A stretch of DNA of 64,000 nt. Origin: Psococerastis gibbosa (Eukaryota; Arthropoda; Insecta; Psocodea; Psocidae). Shown here piece by piece: positions 12,946-61,612 of this stretch (its first letter is position 1; the number at the start of each line of letters is the position of its first letter). Below the pieces are notes generated by a model. The model had not been told where the DNA came from, ran no database searches, and saw only the letters and a program-made list of their open reading frames with translations. A program made the position numbers and the translations under genes. Location of the stretch: the NCBI GenBank assembly GCA_963971405.1, contig OZ020489.1, positions 19,928,290 to 19,992,289 on the forward strand, given 5' to 3'.

Positions 12946-13784
12946 TAAGTTTCCGTGAGAACAGCATTTCCCCACGTGATTATGCACTAATGCATAAAAA
13001 AAGGAGAAGCCTCACTAGTGATTCACTAAGTTTCTGGGGCAATAATACGTCTATGCAAAAATCTACGATAAAAGATAATTCCACCACAGCAAATACAGTT
13101 CACTAAATACTCTCATTTCTCAACTAATCAGCAGACTACATTTTAAGAATAATACTACACAACCTTTTGTTCTTCAAGCTCCCTTGTGCATCTATAAAAA
13201 TTGCCCCGTAACACCAATATCAACAAAAGACCGTAGTGAAGGGTTCTCTGGTTTTTATCCCTATGTGTAACTTGTCAAGCATACTGAGAGTCACAGATGC
13301 TAAAAACAGGTGTTAACCAAAAGCCACGTAAACATTAAAAACATTCAGGGATTAGAAAAACGGATGGACAACTAATCCCAACGAATTGTCTCCGCAATTC
13401 ACTCTTCCCCTGTAATTTCTAACGTTAAAGCATGCCTAAGTTTAAATTCATTAATGCTTTTAACATCAATGTCTGAGTAGTAGCCTCCCTTCATTTAACC
13501 AACAAAGTTCCCAGGGAAGAAGCTATAGAGGGGGAAAGTTGCACTCCACTTGAGGTACCCCTCCAGAATAAGGGCTAATTTCAGAAGGGCTGAGGGATCT
13601 CCACATGCATGTGCTCCCCATATGTATAATAAGCTAGTGAATTATTACTAAAACATTAACAAATTAGCCTCTGTTATTACCGGAGCCATTTAGCCTTTCA
13701 TGAAACCTTAAGTAAGGTTACCGACCTTTAAAGGGTGATCTCCAGGGCCGGAAGTAGAATAAAGGGTTATTCACCGCAAGGGGA
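12946..13784. other. Gene-free sequence, unassigned
   Basis: No gene or repeat was recognised. This is the last sequence unique to the left contig before the overlapped block begins. Confidence 0.5.
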
Positions 13785-14202
13785 GGTTCTTTGTCTATTA
13801 AATATACATTATTGTGCTGAGTCCTATGCATTTATAATACTGTGAAATTCTTCAACTCCCCCCCCCCCCCTCATCGTCATAATTATTTTACTGCAATTTA
13901 CAATGATGATAGATCGGAATTATTGAGGTTGTTATTGCTATTATAATTACATTAATATTTGCATAATGTTTTAATGGACACAGGCCTCGTCGTTAGGGCT
14001 CATTTATGCCTCATGGTGTTTCAGTGTACTGAAATTTATTGGCATTGTTACAGCCATTGGCATCATTTCATGCTTTTACATTTACAGTATCTGTTTGCTG
14101 TTGATACACTGCATCAAAAAACATGCATATTAGACAATATGTAGGAAATAGTAGGAAAACTAATGCATCCTGTACAATAATAAATAACTAAGGCGCCCGG
14201 CT

Positions 14203-14253
14203 CCTATGGGCCCTCACCGTGGCCTGGGACTCTGCCAAAAAAAATCTACTACT
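14203..14253 (+). mobile_element. 51-bp microinsertion with (ACT)n tail
   Basis: The direct repeat ACTAAGGCGCCCGGCT (14187-14202 and 14254-14269) flanks a short insert. The insert begins CCTATGGGCCC, contains GTGGCCTGGGAC and ends in an ACT-repeat tail. The first letters of the repeat merge with the tail, so the true target duplication is 13-16 bp. It resembles the 3' end of the RA retroposon (51253-51328) and the insert at 36722-36775. It is read as a severely 5'-truncated retroposon copy. Confidence 0.6.
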
Positions 14254-15114
14254 ACTAAGGCGCCCGGCTATATCAGTCAGCTAAATCAAACTAAACGAGA
14301 TAGCCAAAAAAAAATTGATCTCGTTTAACTAAAAATATCAGTCAACTCCCGCAACAAGAAAAAAAACTTTTATGTGAGTTTTGAAGCGCTAATAAGCTTC
14401 TGATAAAATATACATCCGGCTGGAAACAGTTTAAGTTAGCTTATGATAAATTTCATATAATGTATCATCCCCAGAATAACATTAGCATTTTATCTGAGCG
14501 CTATAAATAGCGTCCAAAGTTTTCAAACTGGGGGCAAGTCGATTAACGGCAGTTAATCACCAGCTTTCAAGCTCAATAAACCCCCTAACAAACATTTTTA
14601 ACCCGAATTATGGCGGCAGTTAAAGGCATCTGGAGTTTAACTCGGAAATGTATTTCCAGCGGGAGAGGAGTTGCCATTGTCACTAATAAGCCGTAGTCGG
14701 TATTTATAAAGGGGGGGTGTCATTTCAAATTGTTGGCAACATCAAAAAAGCAGCAACAACAAAAGGAGACATGGAAATACAATAATAAATCTATACATAA
14801 TTTCATTAATTCTGTCCGGTTTTTTCAATTGGTTTTAGTGACAGCTAGTGCCAGTGTTTACGTTCTCAGCCGATCATCGTGATCATCATTATATCGCATG
14901 GACCGGTTTCTGTGAGCAACCCGTCCAAACCATCATTGGTGGAGATACCCCCTCCCCTCTTTGCAATTCACCCTCCATATCAGTATCACGTCTCAAGGAC
15001 CAAGTGTTGAATGAAGCGCCCCTACTACCCCGAAAGGGCAGAGAGAAGACGCCACAATACCTAGCCTATGTAAATGGGGCGGACTTGTAGTGTGACCCAA
15101 GCAAACTCTTTTAA

Positions 15115-15564
15115 GGCCAAACCGGAGGGTTGTGGCCTTGACCGTTGAATACATAGAAATATAATAGAACTGGAGCGGCGGGAGTCATAATATGACTTAC
15201 GAGGCACCCGCTAACCATAAGCCAACTATCAGAGATAAGTACCAACGCAAAAAAAAAAAAAAAAAAAGTCAAAGTCTTACACATTGCGGCATAGCAAAGC
15301 GGATACCTGGACCCGGTCAAAAACTCTGTAGTTTAGTAGTTAGCTTGTGCAGGCTACACTAGCAGCCACATTGATAACGGTCTCCAGCCACGGGATCGTT
15401 GAATATCCATTTTATAAACAAAGCCCCGCGTCTCGTACCTGTTCCGTATTTGACTTGTATTATTTCTATCGATTTTTACTATACCACTGCGGTTTAAAAC
15501 ATATATTACGAACCCTCTGCAAAGACATTTCCAGGCCAGTCACGTGACCCCCTCCGGTTTGGCC
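15115..15564. mobile_element. TTAA-flanked MITE (piggyBac-like), interrupted
   Basis: The terminal inverted repeats GGCCAAACCGGAGGG and its complement are flanked on both sides by TTAA (15111-15114 and 15565-15568). That tetranucleotide target duplication is the piggyBac signature. There is no transposase, so the element is non-autonomous. About 245 bp of it is a later insertion of repeat R, leaving an original MITE of roughly 200 bp. The assignment rests on TTAA, because the TIR does not match a piggyBac consensus I can recall. Confidence 0.7.
15152..15396. mobile_element. Short repeat R, copy 2, nested in the TTAA MITE
   Basis: It is flanked by a perfect 9-bp direct repeat CGTTGAATA (15143-15151 and 15397-15405). 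It matches 10501-10725 along its length, except for an internal A run of about 19 near 15250 where copy 1 has a short A-rich stretch. Confidence 0.75.
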
Positions 15565-15698
15565 TTAAGGTTTGCCAATAGCCTCCTCGGGTATTTCCAG
15601 TCATAGAACCATTCCGCCTGTCTGTCAGTCCCCGTACAGCATTAGTTCAACATGGGTGACAATGATCCAATAGGAGAAACAGTATAATAGTACCGGGA

Positions 15699-15891
15699 TC
15701 GACTTCGATGGCAAGGTGGTAGCGTGCTTGTACCTTTTGCGAGTCTCTACCCGCCATGCGATCGGAGACGTGTCGTAACTCAACACGGGTACTAACCTAC
15801 AGAGGCGACTGAAGAGATCAATCGGATGCATTTATTAAATTATTTGTATGCGATTAACCTTTTAATTTAATAAAAAAATAAAAAATAAAAA
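15699..15891 (+). mobile_element. SINE S1, copy 1
   Basis: It starts at CGACTTCGATGGCAAGGTGG, which resembles a Pol III box A, and ends in an A-rich tail of AAAATAAAA units. The body is shared with 21153-21350, 38268-38456 and, inverted, 43735-43909. Box B is poor (GATCGGAGACG). Derivation from a tRNA is inferred from box A and overall layout. Confidence 0.7.
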
Positions 15892-16605
15892 TCGAAGTCC
15901 CCATTACAATCCGAAAATATCGCTTGTAAAGCTGTTTGATTTTCTTCGTCGGGTTTCAGGCAGCCAAAATTTGCGCATCCGCTTAAACTTGTTATTCAGC
16001 ATTGCGAATAGTTGCCGGGTTCAAAATAATGGCGATGATAGCCCCAAAGAAAGTAGAACTAAGTAAGAAAATTAAAAATTAAGGAAAAATTGAAGATTTC
16101 AAATAAAAAATTGTTTTCCTAGCCGATTAATTTCTTTTAAATAGAAAATAACCCAGACAGTTCAAATTTCAGCTTATTCAATACAATGGAAAAAATTTCC
16201 AGTTCTTCCGTTTGGGCGTAAATATATTTAATATTGTAATGCAGCTGTACAGTATTATACCAACCACCTCAAAATCATAGGTTATGATATCCAACAATGA
16301 GTTACAGATTGTAAGGCAAAAACTAGATGAAACAGTGAGATGGGAGCCACCCCTTCATTTAACCCGGCACGTGCATGTACAGCCCTCCCTCCCTCCCTCC
16401 CTGCACACGATAATCACAAGATAAGCAAATTAGGAAGGCATATAATCCTTTTTTTTATGCAGCGGTATTCAACCATAAATAAATTCTGGAAAAGGTTCAT
16501 GATTATACTATAAAGGGATCATTCATTAGTAGACCACACCTGTGATAAGAGACGCCGCGCATGAAGGGTAAAAAATAATGAGCAGTAAACTGATTATTGA
16601 CTTAC

Positions 16606-16685
16606 CCCTGGTGTTTGGGCTTGCGGTCCGAACGGGTAGCGAGTCCATTCTAATCGGGATTCATTAGTGGTGTCTAATATCACAA
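16606..16685 (-). CDS. Eph: Eph receptor tyrosine kinase, ligand-binding-domain exon (duplicate copy)
   Basis: This is identical to the exon at 26600-26679, including its flanking splice sites, and lies in the falsely duplicated block. It should not be counted as a second exon. The exon is 80 bp long, which is not a multiple of three, so a model using both copies in tandem would shift the reading frame. Confidence 0.8.
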
Positions 16686-16689
16686 CTGA

Positions 16690-19600
16690 AACAAAATAAT
16701 GCAAATTTAACAGTCAATGTAACATACACCCAAATGTCAAATGTCCAAGGAACTGATTTTATAATAATGAGTGGTTTGCATTGTGGAACGTGCTTTTTGC
16801 GTGAGTGAATTTAAAACAAAACATTTTCAGCAGAAATCGAGTCGAAAATGTTTCAAAAATGCAATTCAACAATGCAACAAATTACACTGCTCAACAGCAT
16901 CAGAAATCGGCGGTACAGGCAAAGCACCAACGGAATGATGTTTAAAACATTTAAATACGGTATTAAAAGTTACCCGATCCAAAGCAGGCGACACTAAATT
17001 GTTTTGTCACGTCACTAGAAGGTAAAAAATAGCGAACAACATCGCACCAACTCAGTCTGTGTTTGGGTAAAGCAGGTCAATCGATGATGAAACGTTTTAA
17101 ATTCAATTTAAAGCAATAGATGAATAGACAAATGCGATTAATCATTGATTAGCTTTTACCATCAATATAACGCTGAGAAAACCCGACCATTTCATCAAAT
17201 GGCGACTACTTTTTTTGAAACACGGCATCAAAGTTTATAATTACGAAATTAAACATTAAACGTTTCACCGTATGGAGCCACTTCTATCCGTCAGCACTCT
17301 AGAATTTTTGCATTTGGAAACCAAATTGGGAATGCCTATGTTTTTTAATTTGATCCTTTGTATATTGCTTTACAAATTATATCCGCAATGCACAAATCGT
17401 CACTGACCATGCCTCTCTTTATCCGTCCCGAAATGGAATAGTTACTAACAAAACTAGATACGATGGAATGGACTTTAATAAATAGCAGCACTTCACTAAA
17501 TGTCGGCAAGGCATTGGAACCAATATTGGGGCTCATATTTGCACAGTACTAGTAGAATTTACTGGTCAATGTTTATGAAAATCAGTTCAAAATGAATACA
17601 GGCACGATCAGCCTTGGTGCCTCAAGGAAAAATGTTCAAAAACAGTATCTGTCTCTGTGTAACCAGCATCTTTCTTATCTAACATTATCTTTAAGCATTA
17701 ATTAACTGATGTGTTTTACATACTGACGTGTTGCAGCCTATTATTATGTGATTCATATGTATGTCCGAATTGGCATAACTTAAAAACTGAATCAAGAGTG
17801 AAGAAATTGAGCTGTCCCATCTCAAACACCGAGCGATATTCATCGGTCTCCAAGTCAAAGTCATAAAAGGATGCCGTCATAAGACGAATATTAATGACAA
17901 AATCACGTGCATACACATGATAACATCTACTCCCTTTTAAATGCCTGAGAATTTTACGGCCCGAACTAAGTCTTGGGTCATCTGCATAGTCTTTTGTATA
18001 GCATTTTCAAACGGCTGTCAACTGCAGCGGACGGATTCCAAGAAATTGAGCCCACTCACGCCTCACCAAGCAATGCACCATCGAAAAGAAGAAAACTAAA
18101 CGACAGGAAACCCATGTCAATTGTCCCACCGTTTAAGTTTAGTTGACGAGTTGTATATCTACAACTAAGTTAATGAAACATTTTCCATGGTAATTAATGA
18201 TTTGCATTGCCAGAACTTCTATTAGAAAATTTAAACAAGTTGGTAGGTTACCTCTATTATCAGGGACGTCATTTTTTCACGCAATGGATAGGTGAATAGA
18301 CAAAAGTCCAGTGTAGAAAATGAGTAGGCTACTACGCATATTGCATTTAGTGTTGGATGGTAAATCGTCTTACTGTATTATGTTATTCTTTCCGCCCAAT
18401 ACCTATTGATAACTGCATCGAAAAAACCGATAAAAATCTGCAATAAGTTAGAGCCGTCTGGCATCATTAAAATGTTCCCAACTTCAATACCAGAATGTCC
18501 CATTTAATGAATGAAAAATGTAGCAATAACCCACAATCTCGGCTAGACCATACATAAACTGACGGGATAGTGGAAACAACACAATACTCATCATTAAAGA
18601 GGTTACGACCTTCGCAACTGTCACAAAGGAGTGAAAGGGTCGGCCGGAAGGAGAGGGGATTCCATTGACGGTTCGCAGTCAAAGGAACAAGCTAGAGTCA
18701 AAGGCATAGGCAAAACAATACGTGTACTTGACAGCCAAGAGCACCCTTAGATTAAACCGATTGCTATCAATACTGTATATTCCAGCGCGACTGGGCAGTA
18801 AATAGACAGTTCTCCACCCAGAAGGGCAAAACAGCTAGTGCAATAGGGACGGTAGGCTCAAAGGAAATCCTAAGTGGAAGATTTTGCAATGGTGTAATAG
18901 CCGCAAAGGAAAATGCAGGTTCCCAACACGTCGTGCATGGAACACGGCAAAAAATTCACGGCCGTCAATTGAAACAATTTCGATAATACAATATAACTCC
19001 ACAAGAAGTCAAATCAAAATTTTCACACACACAAAAAAAAACAATTTGAAATCTCGCTATAAAATCTAAAACTATTAAACCCAATATACATCCACATTTG
19101 ATTCAAAAGCCGGGGAAAGAGGAAAGTGGGGACAGTTAATAGATAAGGATGAAATAAAGGGAATAAAGCTTCCCGTAGCAACCAAAGCGGAGAGAAGAAT
19201 CCTCGAAAACTCGGCAAGGGGAGAGTGCGCGACAGAAGGGATCGCCACTGCGAGGATTTGGCTTTACCGCCACTGGAAACGAGCAGACACCCCTACAGCG
19301 ATCGATAAGTGTCAGCCTGGGCTCCGAGCTCCCTTCATCCTGGGCCACCACGCCAAAATCCAATCCTGCCACTTGTTACTAATCTTAGCGATTCCAAAAG
19401 TACCTATTTTCGTAACATTAAAATAAAGCCAGTGTTTTATATTATTACATTTCCCGACACACTCGCGTCCTGATAATTCATCGAACGGAAGAAGAATGTT
19501 TACTTAGTGTTAGGAATGTTTTTAACATTTTCGGGACACTCCAATAAGTTACCAGGTGTGAATCTACTTCGTACTAGTACATTATCAAGAAGTGGCTATT

Positions 19601-20829
19601 ATAATGGCGTCGTCGATAAGGCAAAGACGACGAAACAGTTTAGTGCTTCTATTCTTCCCCTTGGGTGAACTTATGTAATCTCAAACCTCAACTAAAGCAA
19701 TGAATACCCACAAATAAACAATCAACCTTTATTCCATCAGTAATATTCCATTTATTTATTTGATTTTTTAAAAGAATAAAACTACCCAAAGTTTGCAACT
19801 GGTTGCTATAACGCGTTGGTTCTGGTCTTACGTACAGTATATAAAGTCGAGTGGTATCAGCAAAATACGTATAAAGATTCCACCTTCATTTTATTTCTAC
19901 TAGTGATCATAATTCGATTTCGGTTCTCTCTCTTTCCTTATATTCTGACTGTTTCAATACTCGTACATTGAAGATTGATAACTGATAACTCTAAAAAAGG
20001 AGGATCTTAGCTCCCCTTTTTCTTTTCATTTCACACTTGATTGTCTTCCCTATACACCATCCTCACCCTTCATTAAATTTCTCATTATAGAAAAATTACA
20101 GATTGTTCACTCAATCACGCAAGATCTGACAGGTTTTCAATCTTTTCCGATAAAATAAATCGGGGGGATAACCAACAAGAACTGTAAAAATATGGCAGGA
20201 GTTTTGTGCACATGCTTCACCAACCCTGGCTTCAGGTTCCATTTTGTTGCTCGGGACAATCTCCGATTGCAGAAAACTTGGCTGCTTTTAAAATTTAATG
20301 AATTTTTATACCTTTGCCAAACCCAACAAAAAAACAATGCTATCATTCTAGCATAAGCATCTAAGAACTTCGAAAGGCCAAAAATGAACAAGGGGTAAAA
20401 AATCCTTCGAAAAAAATTATAAAAGCAAAAAATATTAAACATTCTAGTGGGAGCGTAGTCTTGATCCAATATCGGATTTTTTCCGGTGCACACCGCAAAG
20501 GTTTACCCCATACCGCTTCGGTTTCCGTTTTTGTTTGTACTCTGCATTCTGTTTGCGTGTATGTGTATTTTTTTTTTTTGTGTGCAAATTGTAGTGGTCT
20601 GGTAGATGATTACGCTAATGGTGGAAATGCGTGTTAGGATACGCTGTTCTGCCTGCAATTGTCAGCCAATATTAATATCGCCAAAACAAACATTTACTCC
20701 CATTTGCTGATGTAAATGCTATGCACAAGTCTGCATTTCCACATGATTTGACTACATTTTGTGTAATGATCTAATTATGATTCGGAGATTGCGCACAACT
20801 CTGCCAAACAAACGCAGTTAGAATAGTAG
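16690..20829. other. Probable Eph intron sequence
   Basis: No further exon or repeat is visible between the exon and the features near 21 kb. A (CCCT)n run lies just left of the exon at 16383-16402. A GC-richer patch at 19100-19380 has open frames on the minus strand but no recognisable domain. Confidence 0.4.
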
Positions 20830-20900
20830 CAGTGGCTAAACTATAAATTTGGGGCCCCTGTGCAAGGATTGAAAATGGTGCCCCCTCCAGGTAGCTCTAA
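20830..20900 (+). mobile_element. Possible hAT-type transposon end
   Basis: The sequence CAGTGGCTAAACTATAAATT followed by GGGGCCCCTGTGCAAGG resembles the CAGTGGCGTAACTA terminus common to many hAT elements. No matching opposite end was found, so only one end is claimed. Confidence 0.35.
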
Positions 20901-21152
20901 ATTTTAGATTACAAATTAAGTATTTTGGTGTGTGGATAGTGCAAAAAGTGGGGTTTTACGCATTTGAACAGCAAAAAACTTAACAATTTTCACATGAAGT
21001 ATTGTTCATAAAACTGCAAACAATGGGAGAATTTTCTTTAATAAATAGGCGCAAAAAAGTGGGCTTCTTGATACACAACTTGCTGTCACTCATGGTAAAT
21101 ATTACAATTCTTAGTACAGATCTTATTACTTACTTTTATATTATAATAAATA

Positions 21153-21350
21153 AGCGGCTTCGGTGGCCAGGTGGTAACGTGCTTGTACTTGTGCGAGTCT
21201 CTACACACCTTGCGGTCGGAGACGTATCGTAACTCGACACAAGTAACTATTAGGTTACTTAGTGAGGCGATTGAAGAGGTTAATCGGATACATTCATTAA
21301 ATTGTTTGTACGCGAATAACCTTTTATAAAAAACTTTTAAGAAAAACTAT
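21153..21350 (+). mobile_element. SINE S1, copy 2
   Basis: It has the same body as copy 1: CGGTGGCCAGGTGGTAACGT, GCGAGTCTCTACAC and GTTTGTACGCGAATAACC. The tail is A-rich and more degraded. Confidence 0.7.
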
Positions 21351-22239
21351 AAAATACATGACCGGTTAAACAAAACACAGAAAAATGTAAACTAAAACAG
21401 TCAAGTCAAGACGCATGGTAAACAACTAATAATTCACTAATAACACAGGATCCAGTTTTTAGTACTTTATATTTAAAAAGGTAATGCCATCAAGATGGCA
21501 CAAGATGGAAAATATATTACATTTTCTTCCCACTGACTTTTTTTACTAGCTAAGCAGAGCCTTAGAATACAAAAAGTAGCTCTATCAGTCATTGAGATGA
21601 AGCATACAAGCCCTCCTCGATTTACTCAGGATGAAACACGTTTTGAATATTATTAGAAAAGCAACAGGGAACAAAAGCCAATTGCAGCTCATAATTTACA
21701 ATTATTTAAAAAAAAAACGTAAAGAATTAAAAAGAATGTAGGATCGACTATGGGCACGGTTTCATATGAATAAAAATGGGATGAGCCGGAGATTTTAGTG
21801 TAGGAAGGTTCCATGTCGGGAACGAATAAAGTCGATAACGCGGAGCCTGTTTCAAATGGAGACTCATGAATAGATTTCGTAGCAAAGTTTCAAGTGCCTC
21901 CTATAAATCTGCTAAGTAATTGGACTGAATGAATATTATACCACAATGTTCCCCACAACCTGTGGCATTCAATTCTACAAATTTCTATAAGAATCAATTA
22001 ATTCCAATTACATATTGTCACCCATTCGTTAACTCACATTAATTAGGTTTTAGTCGGATAAAGAGAAGAAATGGTTTTACTTGCAGCTGCGGCTGTAGCA
22101 AGTCTTGTCTGCGCCAATATGAAGCTATCTGTAGTGGCCTAGTGGATGTCTGGGTCAAAAACAGGTATTTTAATATCTTATCGCTGTACAAGACACTGGG
22201 TATAGTGAATATTTACCATAGGTAAATCCCTATGCTGGA

Positions 22240-22590
22240 TGGCACCGCCATGTGCCAATGCATGACGGTGCCCTGCAGAAAACTAACCAGCGTGTTATCT
22301 AAACGCATTTCAGAGTTGGTTAAACCGAGTTAAACTAGTAATATTAAAGCGGCGCAGCGATCGATTGTAGTGTCAGCAGCCACCATGATTAATTAATAAT
22401 ATTTATATAAACAAACGTGACACCAGAATGGACTTCGTTTATAAACGTGGCACGAACATCGCGACTCCTATCACGTTGTTTACACTGTCAACTTGTTTCG
22501 ATTTAGCACAATAACCCTCTCAGAGGTCCACTCACGATGTGTGGTGACTTGGATAACACCTTTTTAGTCGACTTTGACATAGTGAATACC
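22240..22590 (-). mobile_element. Degraded relative of the TA-flanked MITE at 49319
   Basis: Read on the minus strand, several blocks align with 49319-49798 in order. These are the GAGGTCCACTCACGAT block, the CACGTTGTTTAC block, the GTGGCACGA block and a gTTAAaCtAG block near the far end. The termini have decayed. The relationship rests on visual block matches only. Confidence 0.4.
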
Positions 22591-22621
22591 ATTTGTGAAC
22601 TTGGCACAAATCAGCCTGTAA

Positions 22622-22812
22622 AGCGGCCCCTACACGGTCAATATTAATGACATTATCAGTAATGTCATTACTATTCAGCTGTGATCAGAAAATCCGGATC
22701 CACATCATTATTTTTCGTCATTCCAACTTTGTCCACCTTACACGATCATTATTACTGTCATCTTGATAAGGTAATGTCATAATTATTTATTACTGACCGT
22801 GTAGGGGCCGCT
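22622..22812. mobile_element. TAA-flanked MITE, 191 bp (PIF/Harbinger-like)
   Basis: The terminal repeats AGCGGCCCCTACACGGTCA and the complement of their shared part are flanked by TAA on both sides (22619-22621 and 22813-22815). A TWA target duplication is typical of PIF/Harbinger elements. The arms also share an ATGACATTA-type motif. It has no coding capacity. Confidence 0.75.
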
Positions 22813-23525
22813 TAAGAATACGAGCATTGCATTGAGCAGGCTTTACAAATTAAATCGACGCAAAACTAAGAGAATTCCAGTCCAGAGGCCCTATTCACTA
22901 GACCTTCCAGGATAATAAACAGAATTGCAGCGAGGCTTACAACCAGCAGCATTGCAGGAGGACGTGACAATCAGCGCGAATGTCCGGCTCACCCTAACGA
23001 AGCCTCTTCACATTTATCTATAAAACAATTTACTGTCATTGTCACCATGAGAGTGGACAAGTGGGGTCCAGAGAGTGGGGAGGGGGGCACAGTTTGAAAT
23101 TCAAATATTTAGGTTCATTATGACAAAGTCTATCTCTACACATCAACCACGGTGCTATGTTGGTTATTATCATATGAGTCTACTTTTGCCGTCCAATCAC
23201 ACATAAATAATGAAGTTACACCTACACTAATTACAATCTTTTGTTGTGTGCTTTTCCAAAACGTATTTTGTCTTCTCTATTTAGCATTGCGTCTATTTCC
23301 GAGTTTCTTACACGCCACTCTCTGTTTTCGTAGAGGGGTCCATAAATTTTCCTAATTATCTTCCTTTCCAATACTTGCGGAGTTTATTGGCGTCGTTGGC
23401 GGTACGATTCCAGTATCCGAGTCGTACGTTGCAACCGGTCTTATAAGGGTATTTTAGATAGAAGTGTAACTTCTCCAATGATCATAACAGTAACATTTTA
23501 TAAAAAGTAGAGCTCAAATTCTTAA

Positions 23526-23578
23526 GCCTGAGTGTTCAAAATGTTTTGTAAACAAGAAATTATCGTAATTTTTGAACG
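23526..23578. repeat. Truncated left arm of a foldback element at the contig end
   Basis: The last 53 bp before the gap equal 33520-33572, the left arm of the inverted repeat described at 33520-33844. The contig stops part-way through this arm. Confidence 0.85.
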
Positions 23579-23778
23579 NNNNNNNNNNNNNNNNNNNNNN
23601 NNNNNNNNNNNNNNNNNNNNNNNNNNNNNNNNNNNNNNNNNNNNNNNNNNNNNNNNNNNNNNNNNNNNNNNNNNNNNNNNNNNNNNNNNNNNNNNNNNNN
23701 NNNNNNNNNNNNNNNNNNNNNNNNNNNNNNNNNNNNNNNNNNNNNNNNNNNNNNNNNNNNNNNNNNNNNNNNNNNNNN
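23579..23778. other. Assembly gap, 200 N
   Basis: A round-number run of N marks a scaffold join. The open frames that cross it are meaningless. Confidence 0.99.
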
Positions 23779-24196
23779 GGTTCTTTGTCTATTAAATATA
23801 CATTATTGTGCTGAGTCCTATGCATTTATAATACTGTGAAATTCTTCAACTCCCCCCCCCCCCCTCATCGTCATAATTATTTTACTGCAATTTACAATGA
23901 TGATAGATCGGAATTATTGAGGTTGTTATTGCTATTATAATTACATTAATATTTGCATAATGTTTTAATGGACACAGGCCTCGTCGTTAGGGCTCATTTA
24001 TGCCTCATGGTGTTTCAGTGTACTGAAATTTATTGGCATTGTTACAGCCATTGGCATCATTTCATGCTTTTACATTTACAGTATCTGTTTGCTGTTGATA
24101 CACTGCATCAAAAAACATGCATATTAGACAATATGTAGGAAATAGTAGGAAAACTAATGCATCCTGTACAATAATAAATAACTAAGGCGCCCGGCT

Positions 24197-24247
24197 CCTA
24201 TGGGCCCTCACCGTGGCCTGGGACTCTGCCAAAAAAAATCTACTACT
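24197..24247 (+). mobile_element. 51-bp microinsertion (second assembly copy)
   Basis: Same sequence as 14203-14253. Confidence 0.55.
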
Positions 24248-25108
24248 ACTAAGGCGCCCGGCTATATCAGTCAGCTAAATCAAACTAAACGAGATAGCCA
24301 AAAAAAAATTGATCTCGTTTAACTAAAAATATCAGTCAACTCCCGCAACAAGAAAAAAAACTTTTATGTGAGTTTTGAAGCGCTAATAAGCTTCTGATAA
24401 AATATACATCCGGCTGGAAACAGTTTAAGTTAGCTTATGATAAATTTCATATAATGTATCATCCCCAGAATAACATTAGCATTTTATCTGAGCGCTATAA
24501 ATAGCGTCCAAAGTTTTCAAACTGGGGGCAAGTCGATTAACGGCAGTTAATCACCAGCTTTCAAGCTCAATAAACCCCCTAACAAACATTTTTAACCCGA
24601 ATTATGGCGGCAGTTAAAGGCATCTGGAGTTTAACTCGGAAATGTATTTCCAGCGGGAGAGGAGTTGCCATTGTCACTAATAAGCCGTAGTCGGTATTTA
24701 TAAAGGGGGGGTGTCATTTCAAATTGTTGGCAACATCAAAAAAGCAGCAACAACAAAAGGAGACATGGAAATACAATAATAAATCTATACATAATTTCAT
24801 TAATTCTGTCCGGTTTTTTCAATTGGTTTTAGTGACAGCTAGTGCCAGTGTTTACGTTCTCAGCCGATCATCGTGATCATCATTATATCGCATGGACCGG
24901 TTTCTGTGAGCAACCCGTCCAAACCATCATTGGTGGAGATACCCCCTCCCCTCTTTGCAATTCACCCTCCATATCAGTATCACGTCTCAAGGACCAAGTG
25001 TTGAATGAAGCGCCCCTACTACCCCGAAAGGGCAGAGAGAAGACGCCACAATACCTAGCCTATGTAAATGGGGCGGACTTGTAGTGTGACCCAAGCAAAC
25101 TCTTTTAA

Positions 25109-25558
25109 GGCCAAACCGGAGGGTTGTGGCCTTGACCGTTGAATACATAGAAATATAATAGAACTGGAGCGGCGGGAGTCATAATATGACTTACGAGGCA
25201 CCCGCTAACCATAAGCCAACTATCAGAGATAAGTACCAACGCAAAAAAAAAAAAAAAAAAAGTCAAAGTCTTACACATTGCGGCATAGCAAAGCGGATAC
25301 CTGGACCCGGTCAAAAACTCTGTAGTTTAGTAGTTAGCTTGTGCAGGCTACACTAGCAGCCACATTGATAACGGTCTCCAGCCACGGGATCGTTGAATAT
25401 CCATTTTATAAACAAAGCCCCGCGTCTCGTACCTGTTCCGTATTTGACTTGTATTATTTCTATCGATTTTTACTATACCACTGCGGTTTAAAACATATAT
25501 TACGAACCCTCTGCAAAGACATTTCCAGGCCAGTCACGTGACCCCCTCCGGTTTGGCC
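25109..25558. mobile_element. TTAA-flanked MITE (second assembly copy)
   Basis: Same sequence as 15115-15564. Confidence 0.65.
25146..25390. mobile_element. Short repeat R nested in the TTAA MITE (second assembly copy)
   Basis: Same sequence as 15152-15396, with the same 9-bp flanking repeat. Confidence 0.7.
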
Positions 25559-25692
25559 TTAAGGTTTGCCAATAGCCTCCTCGGGTATTTCCAGTCATAG
25601 AACCATTCCGCCTGTCTGTCAGTCCCCGTACAGCATTAGTTCAACATGGGTGACAATGATCCAATAGGAGAAACAGTATAATAGTACCGGGA

Positions 25693-25885
25693 TCGACTTC
25701 GATGGCAAGGTGGTAGCGTGCTTGTACCTTTTGCGAGTCTCTACCCGCCATGCGATCGGAGACGTGTCGTAACTCAACACGGGTACTAACCTACAGAGGC
25801 GACTGAAGAGATCAATCGGATGCATTTATTAAATTATTTGTATGCGATTAACCTTTTAATTTAATAAAAAAATAAAAAATAAAAA
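25693..25885 (+). mobile_element. SINE S1 (second assembly copy of copy 1)
   Basis: Same sequence as 15699-15891. Confidence 0.65.
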
Positions 25886-26599
25886 TCGAAGTCCCCATTA
25901 CAATCCGAAAATATCGCTTGTAAAGCTGTTTGATTTTCTTCGTCGGGTTTCAGGCAGCCAAAATTTGCGCATCCGCTTAAACTTGTTATTCAGCATTGCG
26001 AATAGTTGCCGGGTTCAAAATAATGGCGATGATAGCCCCAAAGAAAGTAGAACTAAGTAAGAAAATTAAAAATTAAGGAAAAATTGAAGATTTCAAATAA
26101 AAAATTGTTTTCCTAGCCGATTAATTTCTTTTAAATAGAAAATAACCCAGACAGTTCAAATTTCAGCTTATTCAATACAATGGAAAAAATTTCCAGTTCT
26201 TCCGTTTGGGCGTAAATATATTTAATATTGTAATGCAGCTGTACAGTATTATACCAACCACCTCAAAATCATAGGTTATGATATCCAACAATGAGTTACA
26301 GATTGTAAGGCAAAAACTAGATGAAACAGTGAGATGGGAGCCACCCCTTCATTTAACCCGGCACGTGCATGTACAGCCCTCCCTCCCTCCCTCCCTGCAC
26401 ACGATAATCACAAGATAAGCAAATTAGGAAGGCATATAATCCTTTTTTTTATGCAGCGGTATTCAACCATAAATAAATTCTGGAAAAGGTTCATGATTAT
26501 ACTATAAAGGGATCATTCATTAGTAGACCACACCTGTGATAAGAGACGCCGCGCATGAAGGGTAAAAAATAATGAGCAGTAAACTGATTATTGACTTAC

Positions 26600-26679
26600 C
26601 CCTGGTGTTTGGGCTTGCGGTCCGAACGGGTAGCGAGTCCATTCTAATCGGGATTCATTAGTGGTGTCTAATATCACAA
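26600..26679 (-). CDS. Eph: Eph receptor tyrosine kinase, N-terminal ligand-binding-domain exon
   Basis: On the minus strand a pyrimidine-rich tract ending TTTTGTTTCAG precedes an 80-bp open segment followed by the donor GTAAGT. The exon opens with two bases that complete a codon. It then reads VILDTTNES followed by RLEWTRYPFGPQAQTPG, and ends in phase 0. The peptide matches the start of the Eph ligand-binding domain as I know it from insects (VVLLDTT ... EWTKYPYGPQAQTPG, continuing WVEESF). Eph receptors are membrane tyrosine kinases that bind ephrins on neighbouring cells and guide axons and tissue boundaries. Only this first part of the ligand-binding domain is present. The kinase, SAM and other exons are not in the window. 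An exon beginning with W was looked for to the left and not found. Sequence, splice sites and phase all agree, so I regard this as a real host exon. Confidence 0.87.
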
Positions 26680-26684
26680 CTGAA

Positions 26685-29600
26685 ACAAAATAATGCAAAT
26701 TTAACAGTCAATGTAACATACACCCAAATGTCAAATGTCCAAGGAACTGATTTTATAATAATGAGTGGTTTGCATTGTGGAACGTGCTTTTTGCGTGAGT
26801 GAATTTAAAACAAAACATTTTCAGCAGAAATCGAGTCGAAAATGTTTCAAAAATGCAATTCAACAATGCAACAAATTACACTGCTCAACAGCATCAGAAA
26901 TCGGCGGTACAGGCAAAGCACCAACGGAATGATGTTTAAAACATTTAAATACGGTATTAAAAGTTACCCGATCCAAAGCAGGCGACACTAAATTGTTTTG
27001 TCACGTCACTAGAAGGTAAAAAATAGCGAACAACATCGCACCAACTCAGTCTGTGTTTGGGTAAAGCAGGTCAATCGATGATGAAACGTTTTAAATTCAA
27101 TTTAAAGCAATAGATGAATAGACAAATGCGATTAATCATTGATTAGCTTTTACCATCAATATAACGCTGAGAAAACCCGACCATTTCATCAAATGGCGAC
27201 TACTTTTTTTGAAACACGGCATCAAAGTTTATAATTACGAAATTAAACATTAAACGTTTCACCGTATGGAGCCACTTCTATCCGTCAGCACTCTAGAATT
27301 TTTGCATTTGGAAACCAAATTGGGAATGCCTATGTTTTTTAATTTGATCCTTTGTATATTGCTTTACAAATTATATCCGCAATGCACAAATCGTCACTGA
27401 CCATGCCTCTCTTTATCCGTCCCGAAATGGAATAGTTACTAACAAAACTAGATACGATGGAATGGACTTTAATAAATAGCAGCACTTCACTAAATGTCGG
27501 CAAGGCATTGGAACCAATATTGGGGCTCATATTTGCACAGTACTAGTAGAATTTACTGGTCAATGTTTATGAAAATCAGTTCAAAATGAATACAGGCACG
27601 ATCAGCCTTGGTGCCTCAAGGAAAAATGTTCAAAAACAGTATCTGTCTCTGTGTAACCAGCATCTTTCTTATCTAACATTATCTTTAAGCATTAATTAAC
27701 TGATGTGTTTTACATACTGACGTGTTGCAGCCTATTATTATGTGATTCATATGTATGTCCGAATTGGCATAACTTAAAAACTGAATCAAGAGTGAAGAAA
27801 TTGAGCTGTCCCATCTCAAACACCGAGCGATATTCATCGGTCTCCAAGTCAAAGTCATAAAAGGATGCCGTCATAAGACGAATATTAATGACAAAATCAC
27901 GTGCATACACATGATAACATCTACTCCCTTTTAAATGCCTGAGAATTTTACGGCCCGAACTAAGTCTTGGGTCATCTGCATAGTCTTTTGTATAGCATTT
28001 TCAAACGGCTGTCAACTGCAGCGGACGGATTCCAAGAAATTGAGCCCACTCACGCCTCACCAAGCAATGCACCATCGAAAAGAAGAAAACTAAACGACAG
28101 GAAACCCATGTCAATTGTCCCACCGTTTAAGTTTAGTTGACGAGTTGTATATCTACAACTAAGTTAATGAAACATTTTCCATGGTAATTAATGATTTGCA
28201 TTGCCAGAACTTCTATTAGAAAATTTAAACAAGTTGGTAGGTTACCTCTATTATCAGGGACGTCATTTTTTCACGCAATGGATAGGTGAATAGACAAAAG
28301 TCCAGTGTAGAAAATGAGTAGGCTACTACGCATATTGCATTTAGTGTTGGATGGTAAATCGTCTTACTGTATTATGTTATTCTTTCCGCCCAATACCTAT
28401 TGATAACTGCATCGAAAAAACCGATAAAAATCTGCAATAAGTTAGAGCCGTCTGGCATCATTAAAATGTTCCCAACTTCAATACCAGAATGTCCCATTTA
28501 ATGAATGAAAAATGTAGCAATAACCCACAATCTCGGCTAGACCATACATAAACTGACGGGATAGTGGAAACAACACAATACTCATCATTAAAGAGGTTAC
28601 GACCTTCGCAACTGTCACAAAGGAGTGAAAGGGTCGGCCGGAAGGAGAGGGGATTCCATTGACGGTTCGCAGTCAAAGGAACAAGCTAGAGTCAAAGGCA
28701 TAGGCAAAACAATACGTGTACTTGACAGCCAAGAGCACCCTTAGATTAAACCGATTGCTATCAATACTGTATATTCCAGCGCGACTGGGCAGTAAATAGA
28801 CAGTTCTCCACCCAGAAGGGCAAAACAGCTAGTGCAATAGGGACGGTAGGCTCAAAGGAAATCCTAAGTGGAAGATTTTGCAATGGTGTAATAGCCGCAA
28901 AGGAAAATGCAGGTTCCCAACACGTCGTGCATGGAACACGGCAAAAAATTCACGGCCGTCAATTGAAACAATTTCGATAATACAATATAACTCCACAAGA
29001 AGTCAAATCAAAATTTTCACACACACAAAAAAAAACAATTTGAAATCTCGCTATAAAATCTAAAACTATTAAACCCAATATACATCCACATTTGATTCAA
29101 AAGCCGGGGAAAGAGGAAAGTGGGGACAGTTAATAGATAAGGATGAAATAAAGGGAATAAAGCTTCCCGTAGCAACCAAAGCGGAGAGAAGAATCCTCGA
29201 AAACTCGGCAAGGGGAGAGTGCGCGACAGAAGGGATCGCCACTGCGAGGATTTGGCTTTACCGCCACTGGAAACGAGCAGACACCCCTACAGCGATCGAT
29301 AAGTGTCAGCCTGGGCTCCGAGCTCCCTTCATCCTGGGCCACCACGCCAAAATCCAATCCTGCCACTTGTTACTAATCTTAGCGATTCCAAAAGTACCTA
29401 TTTTCGTAACATTAAAATAAAGCCAGTGTTTTATATTATTACATTTCCCGACACACTCGCGTCCTGATAATTCATCGAACGGAAGAAGAATGTTTACTTA
29501 GTGTTAGGAATGTTTTTAACATTTTCGGGACACTCCAATAAGTTACCAGGTGTGAATCTACTTCGTACTAGTACATTATCAAGAAGTGGCTATTATAATG

Positions 29601-30823
29601 GCGTCGTCGATAAGGCAAAGACGACGAAACAGTTTAGTGCTTCTATTCTTCCCCTTGGGTGAACTTATGTAATCTCAAACCTCAACTAAAGCAATGAATA
29701 CCCACAAATAAACAATCAACCTTTATTCCATCAGTAATATTCCATTTATTTATTTGATTTTTTAAAAGAATAAAACTACCCAAAGTTTGCAACTGGTTGC
29801 TATAACGCGTTGGTTCTGGTCTTACGTACAGTATATAAAGTCGAGTGGTATCAGCAAAATACGTATAAAGATTCCACCTTCATTTTATTTCTACTAGTGA
29901 TCATAATTCGATTTCGGTTCTCTCTCTTTCCTTATATTCTGACTGTTTCAATACTCGTACATTGAAGATTGATAACTGATAACTCTAAAAAAGGAGGATC
30001 TTAGCTCCCCTTTTTCTTTTCATTTCACACTTGATTGTCTTCCCTATACACCATCCTCACCCTTCATTAAATTTCTCATTATAGAAAAATTACAGATTGT
30101 TCACTCAATCACGCAAGATCTGACAGGTTTTCAATCTTTTCCGATAAAATAAATCGGGGGGATAACCAACAAGAACTGTAAAAATATGGCAGGAGTTTTG
30201 TGCACATGCTTCACCAACCCTGGCTTCAGGTTCCATTTTGTTGCTCGGGACAATCTCCGATTGCAGAAAACTTGGCTGCTTTTAAAATTTAATGAATTTT
30301 TATACCTTTGCCAAACCCAACAAAAAAACAATGCTATCATTCTAGCATAAGCATCTAAGAACTTCGAAAGGCCAAAAATGAACAAGGGGTAAAAAATCCT
30401 TCGAAAAAAATTATAAAAGCAAAAAATATTAAACATTCTAGTGGGAGCGTAGTCTTGATCCAATATCGGATTTTTTCCGGTGCACACCGCAAAGGTTTAC
30501 CCCATACCGCTTCGGTTTCCGTTTTTGTTTGTACTCTGCATTCTGTTTGCGTGTATGTGTATTTTTTTTTTTTGTGTGCAAATTGTAGTGGTCTGGTAGA
30601 TGATTACGCTAATGGTGGAAATGCGTGTTAGGATACGCTGTTCTGCCTGCAATTGTCAGCCAATATTAATATCGCCAAAACAAACATTTACTCCCATTTG
30701 CTGATGTAAATGCTATGCACAAGTCTGCATTTCCACATGATTTGACTACATTTTGTGTAATGATCTAATTATGATTCGGAGATTGCGCACAACTCTGCCA
30801 AACAAACGCAGTTAGAATAGTAG
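26685..30823. other. Probable Eph intron 1 (second assembly copy)
   Basis: Same content as 16690-20829, with no exon seen. Confidence 0.4.
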
Positions 30824-30894
30824 CAGTGGCTAAACTATAAATTTGGGGCCCCTGTGCAAGGATTGAAAATGGTGCCCCCTCCAGGTAGCTCTAA
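30824..30894 (+). mobile_element. Possible hAT-type end (second assembly copy)
   Basis: Same sequence as 20830-20900. Confidence 0.3.
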
Positions 30895-31146
30895 ATTTTA
30901 GATTACAAATTAAGTATTTTGGTGTGTGGATAGTGCAAAAAGTGGGGTTTTACGCATTTGAACAGCAAAAAACTTAACAATTTTCACATGAAGTATTGTT
31001 CATAAAACTGCAAACAATGGGAGAATTTTCTTTAATAAATAGGCGCAAAAAAGTGGGCTTCTTGATACACAACTTGCTGTCACTCATGGTAAATATTACA
31101 ATTCTTAGTACAGATCTTATTACTTACTTTTATATTATAATAAATA

Positions 31147-31344
31147 AGCGGCTTCGGTGGCCAGGTGGTAACGTGCTTGTACTTGTGCGAGTCTCTACAC
31201 ACCTTGCGGTCGGAGACGTATCGTAACTCGACACAAGTAACTATTAGGTTACTTAGTGAGGCGATTGAAGAGGTTAATCGGATACATTCATTAAATTGTT
31301 TGTACGCGAATAACCTTTTATAAAAAACTTTTAAGAAAAACTAT
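31147..31344 (+). mobile_element. SINE S1 (second assembly copy of copy 2)
   Basis: Same sequence as 21153-21350. Confidence 0.65.
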
Positions 31345-32233
31345 AAAATACATGACCGGTTAAACAAAACACAGAAAAATGTAAACTAAAACAGTCAAGT
31401 CAAGACGCATGGTAAACAACTAATAATTCACTAATAACACAGGATCCAGTTTTTAGTACTTTATATTTAAAAAGGTAATGCCATCAAGATGGCACAAGAT
31501 GGAAAATATATTACATTTTCTTCCCACTGACTTTTTTTACTAGCTAAGCAGAGCCTTAGAATACAAAAAGTAGCTCTATCAGTCATTGAGATGAAGCATA
31601 CAAGCCCTCCTCGATTTACTCAGGATGAAACACGTTTTGAATATTATTAGAAAAGCAACAGGGAACAAAAGCCAATTGCAGCTCATAATTTACAATTATT
31701 TAAAAAAAAAACGTAAAGAATTAAAAAGAATGTAGGATCGACTATGGGCACGGTTTCATATGAATAAAAATGGGATGAGCCGGAGATTTTAGTGTAGGAA
31801 GGTTCCATGTCGGGAACGAATAAAGTCGATAACGCGGAGCCTGTTTCAAATGGAGACTCATGAATAGATTTCGTAGCAAAGTTTCAAGTGCCTCCTATAA
31901 ATCTGCTAAGTAATTGGACTGAATGAATATTATACCACAATGTTCCCCACAACCTGTGGCATTCAATTCTACAAATTTCTATAAGAATCAATTAATTCCA
32001 ATTACATATTGTCACCCATTCGTTAACTCACATTAATTAGGTTTTAGTCGGATAAAGAGAAGAAATGGTTTTACTTGCAGCTGCGGCTGTAGCAAGTCTT
32101 GTCTGCGCCAATATGAAGCTATCTGTAGTGGCCTAGTGGATGTCTGGGTCAAAAACAGGTATTTTAATATCTTATCGCTGTACAAGACACTGGGTATAGT
32201 GAATATTTACCATAGGTAAATCCCTATGCTGGA

Positions 32234-32584
32234 TGGCACCGCCATGTGCCAATGCATGACGGTGCCCTGCAGAAAACTAACCAGCGTGTTATCTAAACGC
32301 ATTTCAGAGTTGGTTAAACCGAGTTAAACTAGTAATATTAAAGCGGCGCAGCGATCGATTGTAGTGTCAGCAGCCACCATGATTAATTAATAATATTTAT
32401 ATAAACAAACGTGACACCAGAATGGACTTCGTTTATAAACGTGGCACGAACATCGCGACTCCTATCACGTTGTTTACACTGTCAACTTGTTTCGATTTAG
32501 CACAATAACCCTCTCAGAGGTCCACTCACGATGTGTGGTGACTTGGATAACACCTTTTTAGTCGACTTTGACATAGTGAATACC
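32234..32584 (-). mobile_element. Degraded TA-flanked MITE relative (second assembly copy)
   Basis: Same sequence as 22240-22590. Confidence 0.35.
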
Positions 32585-32615
32585 ATTTGTGAACTTGGCA
32601 CAAATCAGCCTGTAA

Positions 32616-32806
32616 AGCGGCCCCTACACGGTCAATATTAATGACATTATCAGTAATGTCATTACTATTCAGCTGTGATCAGAAAATCCGGATCCACATC
32701 ATTATTTTTCGTCATTCCAACTTTGTCCACCTTACACGATCATTATTACTGTCATCTTGATAAGGTAATGTCATAATTATTTATTACTGACCGTGTAGGG
32801 GCCGCT
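32616..32806. mobile_element. TAA-flanked MITE (second assembly copy)
   Basis: Same sequence as 22622-22812. Confidence 0.7.
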
Positions 32807-33519
32807 TAAGAATACGAGCATTGCATTGAGCAGGCTTTACAAATTAAATCGACGCAAAACTAAGAGAATTCCAGTCCAGAGGCCCTATTCACTAGACCTT
32901 CCAGGATAATAAACAGAATTGCAGCGAGGCTTACAACCAGCAGCATTGCAGGAGGACGTGACAATCAGCGCGAATGTCCGGCTCACCCTAACGAAGCCTC
33001 TTCACATTTATCTATAAAACAATTTACTGTCATTGTCACCATGAGAGTGGACAAGTGGGGTCCAGAGAGTGGGGAGGGGGGCACAGTTTGAAATTCAAAT
33101 ATTTAGGTTCATTATGACAAAGTCTATCTCTACACATCAACCACGGTGCTATGTTGGTTATTATCATATGAGTCTACTTTTGCCGTCCAATCACACATAA
33201 ATAATGAAGTTACACCTACACTAATTACAATCTTTTGTTGTGTGCTTTTCCAAAACGTATTTTGTCTTCTCTATTTAGCATTGCGTCTATTTCCGAGTTT
33301 CTTACACGCCACTCTCTGTTTTCGTAGAGGGGTCCATAAATTTTCCTAATTATCTTCCTTTCCAATACTTGCGGAGTTTATTGGCGTCGTTGGCGGTACG
33401 ATTCCAGTATCCGAGTCGTACGTTGCAACCGGTCTTATAAGGGTATTTTAGATAGAAGTGTAACTTCTCCAATGATCATAACAGTAACATTTTATAAAAA
33501 GTAGAGCTCAAATTCTTAA

Positions 33520-33844
33520 GCCTGAGTGTTCAAAATGTTTTGTAAACAAGAAATTATCGTAATTTTTGAACGAAATTAATTAATTGCTCGTTCCACAGCC
33601 ACAAAGACATAAAAGGGAACAGATGAAAAAATCTTAAAAAAATGCAAGTTTTCTGTGAAAGCTGTCTAATTCCCCTACAGATTTACATTTTTCTAAGGTA
33701 ATAATATTTCAGTTCAGAAAATATAAACTTCCTGGGATAACTTGTATTTTGTACAAGTATTTGTATCTGTGGAACGAGCAATAAATTAGTTTCGTCATAA
33801 AATCAGCGAAATTTCTTGTTTACAAAACATTTTGAACACTCAGC
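33520..33844. mobile_element. Foldback element with arms of about 78 bp
   Basis: Inverted arms (33520-33597 and 33767-33844) share CTGAGTGTTCAAAATG, TTTTGTAAACAAGAAATT and ATTGCTCGTTCCACAG with few mismatches. They enclose about 170 bp of unrelated sequence. The direct repeat CTTAA (33515-33519 and 33845-33849) flanks it. It could be a 5-bp duplication, or a TTAA target plus a chance C. It has no coding capacity. The left contig breaks inside the left arm. Confidence 0.8.
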
Positions 33845-33988
33845 CTTAACAACTCCTGTGTAATTTTAACTTGCGCCTCCTACAACATATTAAGTTACCC
33901 TGCTGATGAAACAAGATATCAGGTTTTGTTCGTAACCGACAACCCTAGACCCAGTGGTATGTGTCTAGTCCAGTGTACTACTAGTACA

Positions 33989-34047
33989 TAAGGCCGAACG
34001 CGGGGGGTTCAACCCCCCTCCCCTAAAAACTTCTGGGCACGGCCTTG
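33989..34047. mobile_element. Tiny element with AAGGCC ends, related to the hAT MITE
   Basis: It begins AAGGCCGAACGCGGGGGGTT, has an inner C tract, and ends GGGCACGGCCTTG. The layout and ends resemble the much longer MITE at 41579-41841. No clear 8-bp target duplication is visible. Confidence 0.45.
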
Positions 34048-34379
34048 ACTGTACAGCTGTGCCTCCTGTTATTTTATATTACTCGACTCTGTCACACAAA
34101 AAAATAACATTGCACCGTTGCCCGCCATGTGAAGTTACACTTCAAAAAAGCATAACACTAATAAATATAATAATAAGAACTGTCAGTTAATAAGAAGAAT
34201 CCATCGAACACCGGAAGAAACACCAGAGCAGGGCAGCGGGAGCGGCAGTGTCATTAGACACTGCGAATCTCACGGCGGCCTCTAATTCAAGGTTACGCTA
34301 AGTTTAGTTAATCCCAGACCCTCACTCAAACAAAAAAAATGCCACAAAATGTAAAGACAACACAAAAGACACAATTTAC

Positions 34380-34440
34380 TGAGAAGTCTGTTCAAATCGC
34401 AAGCTAAGCATAGACAACAATGCATACCAAATAGAACCAT
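34380..34440 (-). CDS. Eph: Candidate first coding exon of Eph (signal peptide)
   Basis: On the minus strand an ATG at 34440 opens a hydrophobic peptide, MVLFGMHCCLCLACDLNRLL. The exon reaches a donor site (CTCA then GTAAAT) that leaves one base over. The exon at 26600-26679 needs one base to complete its first codon, so the phases agree, and the join would read ...NRLL then IVILDTT. The peptide resembles a signal sequence but lacks a basic N-terminal end. The start context (CTCATGG) is mediocre, and an in-frame stop lies a few codons upstream. Phase agreement alone happens one time in three. The true first exon could lie elsewhere. Confidence 0.33.
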
Positions 34441-40719: not shown

Positions 40720-41150
40720 CACAAAAATCAGATCTCAGGACAACTTTTTATATTTTGGGCTAACTCAAATTTTGAGGGATTTTACAAAAAAAAACTCCGA
40801 AAAATAGCTTTAAAAAAATATTTCTAAAAACGGCACAACTGTGAAAAAATGTGAAAAAAAATGTGAAAAAAAACCCACTAGGTCGCTCCCCCCTTGATAC
40901 CTAGTTTAGTTCAAGGTGCAAAAAAATGAAAAAAAAATGTGAAAAAAACCCACTAGGTCGCTTCTCCCTTGATACCTAGTTTAGTTCAAGGTGCAAAAAA
41001 ATGAAAAAGGTTCAATTTTCATGAAAAATTAATAATAAATAATAAATAATTTTCTGACGAACCTATCTATCGATGTTTTCTAATTTTAGGTATATTTAAG
41101 GTGTTAAATAGAGTAACAAAACCGAAACGGTTCCTTTCCAAAGTAAAGTT
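40720..41150 (-). repeat. Dispersed repeat X, copy 4, inverted, with internal tandem duplication
   Basis: It contains the X blocks in reverse complement, ending with GTAACAAAACCGAAACGG near 41110. A segment of about 75 bp, including CCCACTAGGTCGCTNC and CCTAGTTTAGTTCAAGGTGC, occurs twice in tandem (from 40874 and from 40949). The duplication is specific to this copy. Confidence 0.65.
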
Positions 41151-41578: not shown

Positions 41579-41841
41579 CAAGGCCGTAGCCAAGGGGGGT
41601 TCATAGGGGTTCAACCCCCCCCCCCCCTGAAATGAAATGGCTTGACACTAGATAGAATCGGATTTTGAGAGGTAAAATAAAAAATGCTATGAAATATCCA
41701 ATGAAATTTCTGAAAACCCCCCCGAAATGGAATGACTAGACACTAGATAGAATCGGATTTTGAGAGGAAAAATAAAAAATGCTATGAAATATCCAATGAA
41801 ATTTCTGAACCCCCCCGAAAAAAATCCTGGCTACGGCCTTG
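41579..41841. mobile_element. hAT-type MITE with perfect 8-bp target duplication
   Basis: The termini CAAGGCCGTAGCCAAGG and CCTGGCTACGGCCTTG form an inverted repeat, flanked by AGTACAGG on both sides (41571-41578 and 41842-41849). An 8-bp duplication and a CA-starting end are hAT hallmarks. Inside, a unit of about 90 bp is repeated in tandem with a 95-bp period (41629-41721 and 41724-41815), separated by C tracts. It has no coding capacity. A second terminus of this family appears at 63985-64000. Confidence 0.85.
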
Positions 41842-47131: not shown

Positions 47132-47190
47132 GGCCATACTTCGGAGGGCATGTAAAGGAGGCGGCCCCGGGTTTTCCTAGTTGAGTGTAA
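47132..47190 (+). mobile_element. SINE S2 body fragment, split by a MITE
   Basis: It contains GGAGGGCATGTAAAGGAGGC and CTAGTTGAGTGTAA, close to the S2 body at 2639-2700 (minus strand). S2 resumes with TAAGAGA at 47571, on the far side of the MITE. Confidence 0.7.
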
Positions 47191-47570
47191 AGCGCCCATT
47201 CCACCAACCGGCTAGGGCTATTTAAAAAAACGGTGACGTGGTAGCAGACATTCAAGACTTAGGTGGCGTTTCCACCGACCTCACATTGCAGAATGCAAAT
47301 GACATTGACGGAAATTAGAATTTTTCTCTTTATAGAAATCTATTAAAATGTTTGTACTTAACATATCCCATGACGCCATTTTTTAATTTTAGTTTGATTG
47401 TGATTTTACTGTATGATCATTGATCAATTTTAACTATGGCATAGAGGAAAATAAACATTTCCGTCAATTCCGCAATGCGAGGTCGGTGGAAATCCCGGCT
47501 AAGTCTTGAATGTCTGCTACCACGTCACTGTTTTTGTAAATAGCCCTAGCCGGTCGGTGGAATTGGCGCC
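47191..47570. mobile_element. Two-tier palindromic MITE, copy A (PIF/Harbinger-like)
   Basis: It is flanked by TAA on both sides (47188-47190 and 47571-47573). The intact S2 SINE supplies the empty site (GAGTGTAAGAGA), confirming a 3-bp TAA duplication. The outer ends AGCGCCCATTCCACC and GGTGGAATTGGCGCC pair. Inside lies a second inverted pair with its own GGTGGCGTTTCCACCGACC-type ends (47262-47499). TTA/TAA targets fit PIF/Harbinger. It has no coding capacity. Confidence 0.85.
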
Positions 47571-47741
47571 TAAGAGATAGCGGTAACTACGTGAACACTG
47601 TTCGTTTATTGAACCAAATATCGTACATTTCATAACTGAACCCAATCTATGTCAATGATGACCGCATATTATTTACCAACATGAAGAGGAGCATTTTCTG
47701 CTATTTACTAACGATATCCCAACGATTATAAACCCCTAGGG

Positions 47742-52659: not shown

Positions 52660-52738
52660 TATGTAGGAGAGATGAAAGATTCGCTTCCGCTAAAAATGTC
52701 TGGGGCAATCTGTCAAGTTTCTTCAATGGTTGGTCTTA
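52660..52738. mobile_element. MITE M3, copy 3, left part
   Basis: It begins ATGTAGGAGAGATGAAAGAT, close to the M3 end, and includes CAATGGTTGGTCTTA, which aligns with CAATGGCTGGTTATAGG in copy 1. It is interrupted by the MITE at 52739. Confidence 0.6.
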
Positions 52739-53123
52739 GGCGGGGATTCCAAAGACCTGCAAGTGCAAAATACAAATACGGTGACGTGGTAGCAGACATT
52801 CAAGACTTAGGCGGGGTTTCCACCGACCTCGCATTGCAGAATGCAAATGACATTGACGGAAATTGTAATTTTTCTTTTTACGGAAATCTATTAAAATGTT
52901 TGTACTTAACATATCCCATGACGTAATTTTTTTATTTTAGTTTGTGATTTTACTCTATGATCATTGATCAATTTTAACTATGGCATAGAGTAAAACAAAA
53001 ATTTCCGTCACTGTCATTTGCATTCTGCAATGAGAGGTCGGTGGAAACCCCGCCAGTCTTTAATGTCTGCTACCACGTCACCGTATTTGTATTTTGCACT
53101 TGCAGGTCTATGGAATCCCCGCC
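52739..53123. mobile_element. Two-tier palindromic MITE, copy B, nested in M3
   Basis: Outer ends GGCGGGGATTCCA and TGGAATCCCCGCC enclose inner ends at 52810-53054 (GGCGGGGTTTCCACCGACC and inverse). The flanks are TTA on the left and ATA on the right, probably a TTA duplication with one change. M3 sequence continues on both sides. Confidence 0.8.
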
Positions 53124-53190
53124 ATAGGAGTCGTGTCAGGTGATACCGGAAATACCAAAATATATTTTTGGCGGAAAGCAAAGTCTACTA
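53124..53190. mobile_element. MITE M3, copy 3, right part
   Basis: It continues ATAGGAGTCGTGTCAGG, matching copy 1 (ATAGGAAACGTGGCATCAGG), and ends near TTTTTGGCGGAAAGC. Confidence 0.55.
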
Positions 53191-60370: not shown

Positions 60371-60675
60371 GGCGGGGTTTCCACCGACCTCGCATTGACG
60401 GAAATGTTTGTTTTACTCTATGCCATAGTTAAAATTGATCAATGATCATAGAGTAAAATCACAAACAAACTAACGAAAATTAAAAAATGGCGTCATGGGA
60501 TATGTTAATTACAAACATTTTAATAGATTTCTATAAAAAGGAAAACAAACATTTCTGTCAATGTCATTTGCATTCTGCAATGCGAGGTCGGTGGAAACCC
60601 CGCCTAAGTCTTGAATGTCGATTACTACGTCACCGTATTTGTATTCAGCCCTAGCCGGTCAGTGGAAACCGCACC
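60371..60675. mobile_element. Two-tier palindromic MITE, copy C, with mismatched ends
   Basis: The left end is the inner terminus (GGCGGGGTTTCCACCGACC) and the right end is an outer terminus (GGTCAGTGGAAACCGCACC). The usual left outer arm is absent. The flanks are TTA on both sides (60368-60370 and 60676-60678). The core between the inner ends runs opposite to copies A, B and E. Confidence 0.75.
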
Positions 60676-61388: not shown

Positions 61389-61612
61389 TAAGACTCATAA
61401 CTAAGCTACGTTGGCCGTTGGGCTCTTGAGTATTCCTCTTGTTTGACAATACGATGTTTTTTAGTTTTCCTTTGCAATAGGAAGCTCCATAAATTATGGA
61501 TATAATTTTTAATAGCAAATGGAGCCCCCTCACTATCTGCTTGTTGTACAATGTCAAATTTCTCATAGATAAAATATCAATCGCAGAGAGCACGAGATTA
61601 ATGAGAAGTAAT

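Follow-up and report, generated by a model that had tools for sequence, protein, structure and literature searches.

An exact 9.8-kb repeat on either side of a scaffold gap in the Psococerastis gibbosa assembly is almost certainly an unmerged contig overlap

Introduction

Rhie et al. (2021; PMC8081667) divided the false duplications of genome assemblies into two kinds. The homotype kind originates in overlap-layout-consensus assembly, which leaves the ends of adjoining contigs overlapping; according to the same account, the overlap is often the size of a corrected read, and after scaffolding it appears as a tandem pair interrupted by a gap. In the heterotype kind, which is haplotypic, the copies differ at heterozygous sites. 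Ko et al. (2022; PMC9516828) treated a gap between the members of a duplicated pair as one of the principal marks of a false duplication, and reported that depth is halved in heterotype copies and very low in homotype ones.

The locus described herein resembles the homotype case of Rhie et al. as drawn in the legend of their Extended Data Fig. 5b (PMC8081667), in that identical copies occupy neighbouring contig ends with a gap between them; the likeness extends to a size that would fit a long read, and no point of difference from that case was found in the sequence. It also resembles the false duplications of Ko et al. (PMC9516828), because the gap lies within a pair on one scaffold and the copies are without differences.

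The size of scaffold gaps was considered as a fingerprint of a single scaffolder and was dropped, since gaps of 200 N have been reported for another scaffolded assembly (PMC12134992) and gaps of 100 N for a further assembly (PMC12360841); the available sections of the YaHS paper, and likewise those of PMC11310861, state no gap size.

Results

The repeated block and the gap

The window, by which we mean the whole stretch of 64,000 nucleotides that was analysed, spans 19.93-19.99 Mb on one of the 68 sequences of a 409-Mb genome; the sequence in question is 46.5 Mb long. Copy 1 of the block, at 13785-23578 on the forward strand, forms the right end of the left contig, and its last base adjoins a run of 200 N (23579-23778), which is the sole N run in the window and which we read as a scaffold gap of fixed placeholder size. 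Copy 2, at 23779-33572 on the same strand, starts at the first base after this run and forms the left end of the right contig. A direct comparison of the two copies, each of which is 9,794 bases long, revealed no differing position (0 of 9,794), and the offset between them is 9,994 (9,794 + 200). The nine homopolymers of at least 8 bases, the longest being A19, C13, and T12, have equal lengths in both copies. The original prediction, made from the letters alone, that a 9.8-kb block is present twice against a 200-N gap, with an offset held constant at 9994 over the shared frames and homopolymers, was therefore exact in its coordinates and in its offset.

The identity is not extendable on either side because the partners of bases 13784 and 33573 would both be N (23778 and 23579, respectively). 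With the offset kept, agreement upstream of the block was 39-58 of 200 positions in eight windows between 12001 and 13600, and that between copy 2 and the sequence after it was 37-65 of 200 in six windows, both of which are chance levels. Only N lies between the two copies, and the sequence thus neither displays a junction leading from copy 1 to copy 2 nor speaks against one. A length of 9.8 kb is a size that would fit long reads, and long reads often cross such a length.

The right edge of the block inside a dispersed element

The right edge of the block falls within a dispersed, MITE-like element of approximately 340 bp with inverted-repeat ends (33513-33852), the arms of which (33513-33608 and 33757-33852) are 84% complementary. 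This element is whole in copy 2, whereas in copy 1 (23519-23578) it ends approximately 60 bp in, at the gap, where the contig end cuts it; bases 33450-33572 equal 23456-23578 letter for letter. Among the best 40 of 1,388 candidate matches in the genome, one of which was this locus, all 39 of the non-self copies of the element that were scored aligned across the boundary 33572/33573. Their principal matches begin between 33511 and 33517 and extend to 33687 or beyond, many of the alignments containing insertions. Since the other scored copies cross this boundary, the sequence from 33573 onward is the natural continuation of copy 2, and copy 1 is cut short. The left edge showed no comparable element feature in the junction sequence examined (13585-13984). 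An arbitrary cut through an element fits the ends of reads, but real duplications also break anywhere, and this observation is thus regarded as support and not as proof.

Uniqueness of the block and its flanks

No second gap was present in the window together with 100 kb on each side (264 kb), the 20 flanking 10-kb stretches being free of N. In a search of these 264 kb of contiguous sequence that left out 40-mers occurring more than 20 times, the longest exact direct repeat other than the block measured 257 bp, which places the block far beyond chance.

Two pieces of the block were compared with the whole genome. Each of them, 14000-16000 (best 40 of 5,854 candidates) and 22000-23578 (best 40 of 2,531 candidates), gave two full-length matches of 100% identity, both at this locus, and the other matches listed for them had at most 99% identity over fewer than 500 bases, and they resemble dispersed repeats. 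The left flank (13000-13784) had a single genome match (one of one candidate). The left junction (13585-13984) was found whole at one place (400 of 400 bases) and at another only from 13785 onward (two of two candidates). The right flank (33573-34400) had one full match among the matches listed (best 40 of 1,179 candidates). Each outer junction of the block was found intact once among the matches listed. Among the matches listed for both block pieces, both flanks, and both outer junctions, no further full-length match indicative of a third copy or an alternative haplotig appeared. The best 40 of 1,388 matches to the right junction omit the 123 identical bases of copy 1 itself, and a short further copy could thus escape such lists.

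Regarding the origin of the DNA, six TTAGG units in a row gave 21,159 matches on both strands of the genome (13,642 + 7,517, overlapping places counted), all of those listed being near the end of one sequence, and the reversed pattern gave none. Telomere repeats of the TTAGG type point to an arthropod.

Coding content of the block

Sixteen stop-to-stop frames of at least 70 aa lie wholly within copy 1, frames running into N not being counted, and the longest of these is 121 aa. None of the 16 reached the curated Pfam cut-off; three had weak matches below it (DUF6501, DUF2188, and SBF_like), which we take for chance. No Rfam family at the gathering threshold and no tRNA was found in the window. 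Since the block yielded no recognisable protein family, its duplication is unlikely to have created a false gene copy, short exons being invisible to a search of this type.

Mobile elements and repeats in the surroundings

Traces of mobile elements are numerous in the window and include several families of short repeats. A stop-free frame of 601 aa at 274-2079 carries a reverse transcriptase domain (PF00078, E 6e-28) and resembles structurally solved proteins of R2 and L1 (best E 9e-12); it is part of a LINE-type element. Short tandem arrays are present at 40844-41008 (period 75, 2.2 copies) and 41622-41820 (period 95, 2.1 copies). At 47182-47573, 52733-53126, and 60393-62294, related short repeats (families D1, D2, D4, D5, D7, and D13) form clusters in which both orientations occur; they include an exact pair of 61 nt separated by 717 bp. 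These are probably inverted-repeat mobile elements, some of which are nested.

Outside the window, a young copia-type LTR retrotransposon lies approximately 9-14 kb upstream (from position 6049 of flanking stretch L017 to approximately 673 of L018). The 257-bp exact direct repeat corresponds to its ends (LTRs of approximately 256 bp), which are accompanied by an apparent target duplication of 5 bp (GTTAC). A stop-free frame of 1,303 aa lies between the LTRs; the part of it that begins at the first ATG and runs to where L017 ends (1,191 aa) matches gag of the copia type (PF14223) as well as RVT_2 (E 1e-63). In the downstream flank, an inverted repeat in stretch L019 (4844-5178 and 5963-6297) has 335-bp arms with 8 mismatches and 784 bp between them, and may be a mobile element whose inverted ends are long.

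Discussion

The 9.8-kb repeat is best explained as the overlapping ends of two contigs that were placed side by side without being merged, and not as a real duplication, a reading to which we assign a probability of approximately 0.94. This conclusion is based on the exact identity of the copies, the size of the block, and the published precedent of homotype duplications (Rhie et al.; PMC8081667). The original prediction had named the same cause, and it is supported by the identity, the lone gap between the copies, the lack of a third copy among the scored matches, the outer junctions, each of which was recovered intact once, and the position of one edge inside a mobile element. The overlap is almost certainly a routine, ordinary assembly artefact of the published kind.

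In such a sequence of events, both copies would represent a single locus of the genome. A long-read assembler that works by overlaps may have closed one contig and opened the next within the same stretch, so that the two contig ends would have retained the shared dovetail of a single read-read overlap (9,794 bp). The scaffolder would then have ordered the contigs and inserted a fixed gap of 200 N with their ends uncompared. From the form of the product, we infer a process of long-read assembly and scaffolding, in which the contigs presumably failed to join due to a branch or a weak edge in the graph.

The position of the inner breakpoints, exactly at the gap, had been taken in the original prediction to speak against a tandem duplication. 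The edges are indeed flush; however, an uncrossed real duplication would leave the same flushness, and this part of the argument is weaker than it was made out to be. A repeat is visible only as far as sequence exists, and any overlapping contig ends will therefore look flush with a gap; the flush edges show that contig ends overlap, not what caused the overlap. A real tandem duplication, extremely young or recently homogenised and repeating 9.8 kb or more, may thus be envisaged, the perfect identity of which broke the assembler, so that the contigs ended in different copies and the gap now hides the junction. Contig breaks do happen at duplications that an assembler fails to pass, any junction would be concealed by the gap, and a very young duplication of this type could yield identical letters. 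We nevertheless consider this to be very improbable because it requires zero differences over 9,794 bases, long homopolymers included, as well as a unit of near-read length that reads would nonetheless have failed to cross, although long reads often cross 9.8 kb; furthermore, no third or partial copy was present among the matches listed, and the arrangement has the shape of a known error.

The heterotype alternative, in which both parental versions of the locus were set in succession, appears to be even more remote. Haplotypic false duplication is a common assembly error, as stated in the treatment of false duplications by Rhie et al. (PMC8081667), but the haplotypes of an outbred animal normally differ, and the absence of even one difference would be compatible with this origin only if the locus was homozygous. 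It was rejected on the basis of zero differences between the copies.

If the block is single, the true locus measures 64,000 - 9,994 = 54,006 letters, which agrees with the 54 kb originally estimated. The consequences are a matter of curation only. The overlap, as long as it is left in the assembly, adds 9,994 letters, of which 9,794 are the block and the rest the placeholder, and, if uncorrected, it would mimic a perfect segmental duplication, falsify the copy number, and make the mapping of reads ambiguous.
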